A model generated the notes under the pieces. It saw nothing but the letters and a program-made list of their open reading frames with translations, was not told where the DNA came from and did not search any database. Below, one piece after another: positions 16,403 through 19,037 of a DNA stretch of 43,170 bases. The first letter of the stretch is position 1, and the number at the start of each line of letters is the position of its first letter. The position numbers were made by a program, and so were the translations under genes. Source of the DNA: Nitrospirota bacterium (GTDB lineage Bacteria > Nitrospirota > Thermodesulfovibrionia > Thermodesulfovibrionales > UBA6898); the NCBI GenBank assembly GCA_021811105.1, contig JAJZPM010000029.1, positions 1-43,170 on the forward strand. The letters are read 5' to 3'.

Positions 16403-16654
16403 TTACGACTTCTGGATATAGAGTTCCCAGGAGTCCGACCCTGCCACTTTGACAGACTCGAACTTGTAGCCCTGCTTCTCAGCCCACTTGGGAAGGGAGT
16501 CTTCAGCCGATGCGGGGGCATCGCAGAGGACCTTCAGAAGCTGCCCGCTGGACATCTTTTCGATCGCCTTCTTCGAAAGGACGAGCGGGTAGGGGCACAC
16601 CCTACCGAGGACGTCGAGAGTCTGGTCCGGTGTTTTGCTGCTCAGTTCACCCAT
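16403..16654 (-). CDS. tusA: TusA-family sulfurtransferase
   Basis: The 83-residue protein has the TusA core: DQTLDVLGRVCPYPLVLSKKAI, in which Cys of the CPxP motif carries the persulfide. It passes sulfur between carrier proteins for tRNA thiolation or for dissimilatory sulfur metabolism. The ATG follows AAGGAGG. It is the last gene of a four-gene minus-strand unit with DsrE-type proteins and is followed by a terminator. This context favours sulfur trafficking in energy metabolism, but the dsr genes themselves are not in the window. Confidence 0.92.
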   Translation of the reverse strand: MGELSSKTPDQTLDVLGRVCPYPLVLSKKAIEKMSSGQLLKVLCDAPASAEDSLPKWAEKQGYKFESVKVAGSDSWELYIQKS

Positions 16655-16699
16655 GTGTATTTACCTCCTTGCCACAGGTCATAGACCTTGTTATTAAAA

Positions 16700-17110
16700 T
16701 TAGAAGAAAAGAACGTGCTTTGCTTCTTCTACCGCCTTCTGTATTTCCGTAAAAGGGACTATCTGTATCGATTTATCTGCCCCCATTTCTTCGGCATTCG
16801 GCATTGCATCTTCGGGGATGCCGTATTTAGCAAGATCTTCCTTGCAGACGAGCACATCGAGGTCAACGAGGAGCGCGTTTTTCATATGAGACTCGGTGCT
16901 GGTGATGCCGTATAAATCCATCGCGTTCTGGCCTTTCTGCAACCCGAGCACACCTTCACCGATAAAACAGAGCTTCGGGGTCACGGTCTGACCGTCTTCG
17001 AGCAGGATCTCGACCGTCTGGTAGGCGATCGCGTGGGTTATTGCAAGCCTTGATGTTTCACCTTTGTACTGCGGTTTCTGGACGACAAATGCAAGTTTTA
17101 CGTCACTCAT
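16700..17110 (-). CDS. DsrE/DsrF-like sulfur-relay protein
   Basis: The 136-residue soluble protein has the DsrE/F-like alpha/beta fold pattern: an N-terminal strand VKLAFVVQKPQYKGE, a helix with THAIAYQTVEILLEDG, then PKLCFIGEGV and MKNALLVDLDVLVCKEDL. Two cysteines (in LCFIG and LVCKED) are candidates for sulfur binding, of which the second sits where TusC/DsrF proteins place theirs. The gene begins one base after the preceding gene ends, so they are co-translated. It is more divergent than the next gene and the assignment is at family level only. Confidence 0.75.
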   Translation of the reverse strand: MSDVKLAFVVQKPQYKGETSRLAITHAIAYQTVEILLEDGQTVTPKLCFIGEGVLGLQKGQNAMDLYGITSTESHMKNALLVDLDVLVCKEDLAKYGIPEDAMPNAEEMGADKSIQIVPFTEIQKAVEEAKHVLFF

Positions 17111-17111
17111 C

Positions 17112-17471
17112 TTATTCGCCTCCTATCAGAAGGACCCTGTCCGCGCTGTATATCTTGGCGAGGTACCAGTGCATTGCGTTCCACTGTATACCGGGTATGC
17201 CTTCATCTTTTTTGACGCCCCTTGCCACGGTGCAGGCCTCGCAGGTGCAGATCTCGACGCCTTTTTCGAGAAGGGCCTTGAGGTATTTTTCGCCGGTCGA
17301 ATAATCCTTAAGGTGTTTCTGGTTCGCCTTCACCGAACCGGTTGCATTCCCTGAAAACCAGATGCTCACCTTGTGTCCTTTGGTCGCCGCCGCATCTGCA
17401 AGCTTCAGGGCAAAATCATAAGTCATGCTGCCTACAAGCCCCGGATAACATCCTATCGTTAAATTTCCCAT
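17112..17471 (-). CDS. DsrE-family sulfur-relay protein
   Basis: The 119-residue protein starts with a strand LTIGCYPGLVGSMTYDFALKLADAA and has KVSIWFSGNATGSV, then GVEICTCEACTVARGV containing three closely placed Cys; DsrE and TusD carry their active Cys in this position. It ends with a RVLLIGGE strand. It should form mixed oligomers with the neighbouring DsrF-like and DsrH-like proteins and exchange persulfide with TusA. It sits third from the end of the minus-strand operon. Confidence 0.82.
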   Translation of the reverse strand: MGNLTIGCYPGLVGSMTYDFALKLADAAATKGHKVSIWFSGNATGSVKANQKHLKDYSTGEKYLKALLEKGVEICTCEACTVARGVKKDEGIPGIQWNAMHWYLAKIYSADRVLLIGGE

Positions 17472-17480
17472 AGCGTCCTC

Positions 17481-17777
17481 CTACAGCCACGCGATTTTGT
17501 CGTATTCATTAAAGATAAGGTCAACTACGTCACCGTAATTGACGACCTTGACGCGCTTGTCCACGTCCGCGTCTTTCATGCCCCGTATCTGTATGTCCTC
17601 GGACAGTGCATAAAGATTCGGCGTTTTATCCAAAAGCGAGGAGGCCTTTCCGTTCTCCTTTGTCGTGGCGTGGTACACGCCGTTCTGGACAAGGATGATA
17701 CCCAGCTTGTCGGCCTTAAATCTCTCAAGGGTATCCGTTGTCAGCGTAAAGTCACTAACAAATACACCTAGTTTCAT
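17481..17777 (-). CDS. DsrH/TusB-like sulfur-relay protein
   Basis: The start at 17775-17777 (MKLGVFVSDF), behind a GGGGGAAGG ribosome site, gives 98 residues; a longer frame upstream is not supported. The length, the LGIILVQNGVYHAT segment and the tail VKVVNYGDVVDLIFNEYDKIAWL resemble DsrH/TusB, where the end reads like xxDYxxFVxLxxxxxxxxxW. No cysteine is present in this version, unlike catalytic DsrH. It is the first gene of the tusA operon. Confidence 0.75.
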   Translation of the reverse strand: MKLGVFVSDFTLTTDTLERFKADKLGIILVQNGVYHATTKENGKASSLLDKTPNLYALSEDIQIRGMKDADVDKRVKVVNYGDVVDLIFNEYDKIAWL

Positions 17778-17907
17778 ACCTTCCCCCTTCGTAAAATTTT
17801 TGCTACCAGCAAGGTTAATTTTATAACAAGTTATTCCTTCTTTTGTCAATATGAAATTAATAACACGCATATTAACCCTAACGTTGCATAAAGTGTGTGT
17901 ATTTAGG

Positions 17908-17982: not shown

Positions 17983-18245
17983 GAAAAAGAACTATGACCT
18001 GGAGGTAACATTCGGTGAACTCCAGCATAAGGAGTGTCATCAGGCTCAAGAGCCCGTCAATCAAGCTTTTGTGGCTGTTAATTTACAATCTTTATGCAAC
18101 TGGAAGGTTAATCCTAAGATCAAATATCGCGGGGGATGAACATCAGGGAGATTGCCGGGAAGAAGAGAGCCGTGAAAGGATATGACCTGCGTCTAAAAAA
18201 AATTTTCTACTCAGGCGATTTCATATGATTTCCTCACGAGGTTTG

Positions 18246-18254
18246 TGCTATAAT
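18246..18254 (+). promoter_or_regulatory. Extended -10 promoter of the selenoprotein gene
   Basis: TGCTATAAT is a perfect extended -10 element; no good -35 lies 16-18 bases upstream. The predicted start point, about seven bases on, coincides with the GTG at 18261, so the message may have no leader. Confidence 0.45.
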
Positions 18255-18260
18255 CTTTTC

Positions 18261-19037
18261 GTGCGAAAAATTCTATTGATAGCTGCCGTCCTCTCGCTTG
18301 CGGTTATTATTGGACGCGGGAATGCACAGGCCTTTCCAAAAGGAGAGGAGAAGAAATGCAGCGAATGTCACACCCTCACCGCTGACCAGGCCCAGGAGGT
18401 GCTGAAGCCTTTCGCACCGGACGTCAAGGTCCTCTATATCAAACCGTCCCCTCTGATAGGCATCTGGCAGATCGCGATAGAATCCGGCGGCAGGAAAAAC
18501 ATCGTGTATCTCGATTACTCGAAAAAAATGCTGGTCCTCGGCAATCTCATCGATGCTAAAACGAAGGTCAACTATTCCAGGGAAAGCTTCGAAGAATTAA
18601 ATAAAGTTGACGTCTCGCAGATACCGCTCGGCAACGCGCTTGTGATGGGAGACAAAGAGGCTAAGCACAAGATCATCGTCTTCGACGACCCTGAGTGACC
18701 GTTCTGCGCACGACTTCATCAGGAGATGAAGAAGGTTCTGGAAAAGAGGAAGGACATCGCCTTTTATATATTGCTGTACCCCCTCCCGATGCATGCGGAC
18801 GCTGCCCGGATAGCAAAGGCCATACAATGCAAAAAGTCCCTCTCGCTCCTTGAAGAGGCATTTGAGAAAAAGAAGATCCCTGATGCAACGTGCGAGACCT
18901 CTGCAATCGACGACAATATTAAGCTCGGCCAGAAACTCGGGATCAACGGTACGCCTGCCCTCATCTTTCCTGACGGCACGAATGTCGCAGGAGCCATGAC
19001 GGCCGACGATATCATCAAGAAGATAGACAAGAAATAA
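18261..19037 (+). CDS. DsbC-like thioredoxin-fold selenoprotein with in-frame UGA (Sec) in the active site
   Basis: Two same-frame halves meet at the TGA at 18696-18698. Read through, they form one 258-residue protein. Residues 1-24 are a signal peptide. CSECH at 33-37 is a CxxCH motif. Residues about 45-135 resemble the N-terminal part of periplasmic DsbC-like proteins. The thioredoxin domain starts HKIIVFDDPE, then the UGA (residue 146), then PFCARLHQEM; relatives have Cys at the UGA position, so the active site is Sec-Pro-Phe-Cys instead of Cys-x-x-Cys. The cis-Pro loop GINGTPALIFPDG lies near the end. A perfect 7-bp hairpin lies 15 bases after the UGA. It should act as a disulfide reductase or isomerase in the periplasm. 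An upstream ATG at 18225 would add 12 residues but overlaps a TATAAT box. A TGC-to-TGA nonsense mutation is the alternative. Confidence 0.8.
18714..18731 (+). promoter_or_regulatory. Bacterial SECIS-like hairpin downstream of UGA
   Basis: CTTCATC and GATGAAG form a perfect seven-pair stem with loop AGGA. The loop begins 22 bases after the UGA and has a G within its first two positions, both of which agree with the general bacterial SECIS consensus. It lies inside the coding sequence, as bacterial SECIS elements do. It lacks the exact loop of the E. coli fdhF element. Confidence 0.6.

Follow-up and report, generated by a model that had tools for sequence, protein, structure and literature searches.

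Does the TGA codon that divides a DsbC-like reading frame in a Nitrospirota bacterium end the gene, or is it read as selenocysteine (Sec)? The frame lies on a stretch of 43,170 nucleotides, hereafter called the window, whose source genome comprises 3.94 Mb in 93 contigs and has Nitrospirae MAGs as its closest named relatives. As the best explanation, to which we assign a probability of roughly 0.92, we propose one selenoprotein in which UGA is read as Sec via SelB and an adjacent hairpin, and whose product is an exported disulfide reductase or isomerase of the DsbC fold.

Reading frame and conservation of the UGA codon

Frame translation yielded 258 codons from GTG 18261 to TAA 19035-19037, with TGA 18696-18698 as the sole interruption (Table 1). 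Once this TGA is read as a residue, translation of 18261-19037 gives a protein of 258 amino acids with U146 placed within DPE-U-PFC. Both coordinates and frame are thereby in line with the preliminary description, which had reported two same-frame halves parted only by a TGA at the first active-site Cys. It had further expected a gene caller to split the gene, and the mechanical list of open reading frames does contain it as two pieces of 157 (18225-18698) and 103 amino acids (18726-19037). The start at GTG 18261 is favored over ATG 18225 by the relatives.

Table 1. Coordinates of the Sec-containing gene and its features in the window.
Feature	Position	Strand	Remarks
Extended -10 element TGC-TATAAT, probable leaderless promoter	18246..18254	+	6 nt before GTG start; like arrangement in relatives
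Sec-containing DsbC-like gene	18261..19037	+	GTG start, TAA stop; Pfam Thioredoxin_2, Thioredoxin_4 and DsbC_N above cut-off; dN/dS ~0.1 either side of TGA
Hydrophobic N-terminal segment, probable signal peptide	18261..18335	+	sequence; helix 2-17 in model
C33-S-E-C36-H37, heme-c-like CxxCH motif	18357..18371	+	C33, C36, H37 at least 90% conserved in alignment A1
UGA codon, Sec146, first residue of U-P-F-C active site	18696..18698	+	column: TGA 72, Cys codons 54
Cys149, resolving Cys of U-x-x-C	18705..18707	+	at least 90% conserved
SECIS-type hairpin CTTCATC-AGGA-GATGAAG	18714..18731	+	15 nt past UGA; G at loop position 2; perfect in 71/72 TGA vs 1/54 Cys copies
cis-Pro232 of thioredoxin fold (Thr-Pro)	18954..18956	+	invariant, 64-row alignment

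The protein was found in 173 out of 296 genomes of the phylum, with many matches containing exactly one TGA. From the fetched Nitrospirota loci, 126 distinct homologous domains were extracted. Their column at residue 146, where an alignment of homologues had been proposed to look for Cys or Sec, contains TGA in 72 domains, TGT or TGC in 54 and no other codon; the in-frame UGA is thus aligned with the Cys of homologues. The TGA is kept in near-identical MAG copies (97% and 94%) and in a genome of the same genus (76%). Compared with close copies, dN/dS ranges from 0.11 to 0.13 in the part preceding the TGA and from 0.07 to 0.13 in the part following it; purifying selection thus acts equally on both halves. 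Further disabling mutations, named beforehand as a sign against a functional gene, were not found in comparison with these close copies, which retain TGA and open frame under purifying selection.

These data bear on the reading of the TGA as a recent nonsense mutation in a pseudogene or as a Cys codon (TGT or TGC) miscalled by sequencing error. Such an origin would require only one substitution in a TGC or TGT codon and is compatible with the presence of two Cys paralogues in the same genome, but it is contradicted by a TGA common to 72 distinct sequences, which come from dozens of genomes with independent assemblies, by the purifying selection past the TGA and by a hairpin that is preserved only together with the TGA. 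We rejected it as refuted by TGA conservation and regard its probability as practically nil.

Invariant residues of a 64-row alignment include the Sec/Cys site, C190, C211, and cis-Pro232. A protein-pattern scan, the one reaching beyond the Nitrospirota, yielded one remote match besides two nearly identical MAG copies, and nothing further. One Sec copy of the set is devoid of the resolving Cys (U-P-F-S; L135:1777-1788). Gene neighbors within ~1.5 kb are not conserved, the commonest cluster occurring at 24 of 126 loci, and therefore synteny gave no partner. In the window, a divergent cluster of small genes, judged by eye to be TusA/DsrE-like sulfur-relay genes, lies beside the Sec gene (16403-17870, minus strand); its nearest gene is common to six loci, all of them with a Sec copy.

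The downstream hairpin and the selenocysteine machinery

The preliminary description had pointed out a perfect 7-bp hairpin with an AGGA loop 15 bases past the TGA, and this matches exactly: a spacer of 15 bases (18699-18713) is followed by CTTCATC (18714-18720), the loop (18721-18724) and GATGAAG (18725-18731). Folding energy of the window sequence alone is ordinary compared with shuffles (z = -1.07), so that a hairpin in a single sequence could be chance and its energy was not used as evidence. Its conservation is not chance. All seven Watson-Crick pairs are formed in 71 of the 72 TGA copies vs only 1 of the 54 Cys copies. On codon level, the Leu codon of the stem is CTT in every TGA copy (72/72) vs 14/54 Cys copies, and the Lys codon is AAG in 72/72 vs 23/54, whereas in the remainder of these TGA genes Lys is encoded by AAG in 58% and Leu by CTT in 29% of cases. 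One pair is variable, changing from T-A to C-G on both sides in three TGA copies; this is compensatory, the covariation itself being limited because six of seven pairs never vary. The loop codon follows the pattern CNG in 71 of 72 TGA copies (9/54 Cys copies), leaving loop position 1 free and G fixed at loop position 2. Since CNG is kept in the TGA copies despite encoding Gln, Leu, Arg, or Pro, selection acts on the RNA and not on the protein.

Thus, a hairpin with a loop G lies directly past the UGA and is under selection, as found for bacterial SECIS elements, which share the position just past the UGA and a conserved guanosine in the apical loop (PMC2398784). In comparison to these known elements, the stem of the Nitrospirota DsbC-like family is very uniform and short (7 bp) with a 4-nt loop, and it does not match Rfam SECIS_1, also in a local Rfam scan. 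This null result is uninformative because control genomes gave no match either. A scan of the source genome with a model of the hairpin returned only the Sec gene and, weaker, its two Cys paralogues.

In respect to the decoding machinery, for which a genome search had been suggested, all components were found. SelA (521 bits with PF03841, also above the cut-off with TIGR00474) is adjoined by SelB (373 bits), and SelD (343 bits) as well as a tRNA-Sec with anticodon UCA are present in the genome, as expected for a bacterial selenoprotein. The catalytic position of SelD is itself encoded by an in-frame TGA (SSCAG-U-AAKFSP; L049, G000:C19:38459-39376, minus strand), and therefore this genome appears to recode UGA in another gene as well. 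A standard gene caller would split selD, too.

A second tRNA of this genome fits the tRNA-Sec model (62 bits) with the Cys anticodon GCA (L036:1497-1591, minus strand; G000:C10:25953-26043, minus strand). By its sequence it agrees with the selC* tRNA-Cys described from Nitrospirae, some of which have a UCA anticodon (PMC7609411). This raises the question whether Cys or Trp could be inserted at UGA instead, either by a selC*-type tRNA-Cys or by reassignment of the stop codon. The GCA tRNA was rejected as UGA reader on account of its anticodon, although it scores above the tRNA-Sec cut-off; it reads Cys codons and not UGA, and the UCA tRNA is tRNA-Sec. Likewise, SelA and SelD are present, and a reassigned UGA would need no hairpin, nor would it stay confined to the site of residue 146. 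Stop reassignment was rejected on these grounds, and reading as Cys or Trp is considered highly improbable. Sec insertion at UGA 18696, in contrast, is strongly supported by the comparative sequence data: SelB bound to the adjacent hairpin would deliver Sec-tRNA(Sec) to this codon, and Sec would take the place of the attacking Cys in a Cys-x-x-Cys site of the DsbC type.

Predicted product and its N-terminus

Pfam profiles recognized DsbC_N (PF10411, 33.4 bits, cut-off 25) and Thioredoxin_2 (PF13098, 77.4 bits, cut-off 27), with Thioredoxin_4 also exceeding its cut-off; the protein thus combines the dimerization domain and the thioredoxin domain of the DsbC family. An AlphaFold2 monomer computed with 64 relatives reached a mean pLDDT of 93. 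The best Foldseek match of this predicted model was E. coli DsbC (1eej, E 4.9e-15), and both domains aligned to it by VIA-align over model residues 39-258 (Z 18.4). The two-domain alignments had a high rmsd, suggesting a domain arrangement that differs from that of DsbC. Further differences to the E. coli protein are the low identity (24-26%), Sec for the first Cys and an N-terminal extension with CxxCH. The sequence scores higher with DsbC (75.9 bits) than with DsbG (46 bits), both below the equivalog cut-offs; for the NCBIfam DsbC equivalog NF008129 this cut-off is 215 bits. On sequence criteria, the protein is therefore DsbC-like without being an equivalog of the E. coli protein.

The assignment as periplasmic reductase or isomerase, already made in the preliminary description, is supported by the predicted fold and the family. 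We infer that it acts on disulfides in the periplasm as a reductase or isomerase, its activity, substrate, and partner all being predictions. After export, the product is predicted to fold as DsbC with an N-terminal dimerization domain and a thioredoxin domain, and most likely it would reduce or isomerize wrongly paired disulfides, perhaps of many c-type apocytochromes. It may be re-reduced through a membrane protein of the DsbD/CcdA type; three DsbD_TM proteins above the cut-off are encoded in the genome as possible reductants. Sec should raise the nucleophilicity of the attacking residue and ease its recycling.

The N-terminal CxxCH motif (CSECH, residues 33-37), a hallmark sought for c-type cytochromes, lies in a protein predicted to be exported. 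It is present in 57/72 Sec copies and 48/54 Cys copies and absent from a mostly Sec clade. As five cytochrome c assembly proteins are encoded in the genome, heme may be attached at this site after export. We tentatively consider a heme-c-bearing selenoenzyme, in which CxxCH would bind heme covalently and couple or sense electron flow to Sec-x-x-Cys, yet deem it rather unlikely; alternatively, the CxxC could serve as a redox relay or mimic an apocytochrome. To our knowledge, a combination of covalent heme c with a Sec-x-x-Cys site is without precedent in a DsbC-type enzyme.

The UGA lies close to where the thioredoxin domain begins and could therefore also be taken for a selenium-dependent switch, with low selenium leading to a deliberate N-terminal half of 145 residues that would consist of CxxCH and the dimerization domain. 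In thioredoxin folds, the catalytic Cys is the usual site of Sec, and the UGA is located exactly there, which argues against such a switch. A use of the short product found no support, and the Cys relatives exist without any such switch, making this as the main role of the UGA exceedingly improbable. A single full-length selenoprotein remains our preferred reading.

Upstream of the gene, the spacing of the TGC-TATAAT element recurs at L002, L003, L006, L007, L008, and many other copies. Hexamers resembling a -10 element were located 4-9 nt before a candidate start in 57 of 126 copies vs 1.9% of all ATG/GTG/TTG triplets, a loose comparison because copies have several candidate starts. Judging from these sequences, the mRNA is probably leaderless in the clade of the source genome; other copies have Shine-Dalgarno-like sequences.

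Known selenoproteins and exchange of Sec and Cys within the phylum

Selenoproteins with a UxxC motif in a PF13098 domain are on record: a "Thiol:disulfide interchange protein" (Thioredoxin_2, WP_011366075.1) is listed as such in the tables of PMC9312934 and PMC13188914. The protein described here likewise has a PF13098 domain and UxxC, and shares with WP_011366075.1 the status of a predicted selenoprotein, a likeness by listed description and not by sequence. A DsbG-like selenoprotein with UxxC has been reported as well (COG1651 in PMC2398784, NF041057 in PMC13188914), alike in the disulfide isomerase superfamily and in Sec at the first motif position. NF041057 was not among the matches of our protein at E 0.1 or better, and DsbC outscores DsbG as given above. 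A paper describing a DsbC-type Sec family in Nitrospirota was not found by a literature search with most subscription journals outside its scope. Hence, the DsbC-like Nitrospirota gene is a real selenoprotein gene of a kind with already known UxxC members of PF13098, while its N-terminal CxxCH, at least nine Sec/Cys switches and the likely leaderless mRNA are its less ordinary features, none of which the preliminary description had mentioned.

These switches were counted on a protein tree built with the site column left out. Parsimony requires 22 changes of the Sec/Cys label, at least 9 of them being forced by well-supported branches, vs ~41 for shuffled labels. By these sequence data, the Nitrospirota relatives switch repeatedly between Sec and Cys at the active site. 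At least one copy was present in 83 sampled genomes and a Sec copy in 56 of them. Among the latter, SelA was detected above the cut-off in 53, was fragmentary in G276 and was not found in two others (G142 and G217). Both genomes also gave no SelB above the cut-off but kept tRNA-Sec with UCA alongside their Sec copies, and the missing genes are probably assembly gaps. Two Cys-only genomes have no SelA (G211, G244). G246 combines a Cys copy with fragmented SelA and SelB, an apparent snapshot of the loss of the Sec machinery. The single Cys copy with a perfect hairpin (L019) looks like a recent exchange from Sec to Cys. The source genome itself hosts one Sec copy next to two Cys paralogues, and Sec and Cys paralogues are found side by side in ~20 genomes.

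As a consequence, a gene cut in two by annotation is recovered as one intact gene, and at least 56 sampled Nitrospirota genomes hold such Sec genes. The family represents a natural test bed for the questions why and when Sec is traded for Cys and how strongly a SECIS element constrains the protein sequence.
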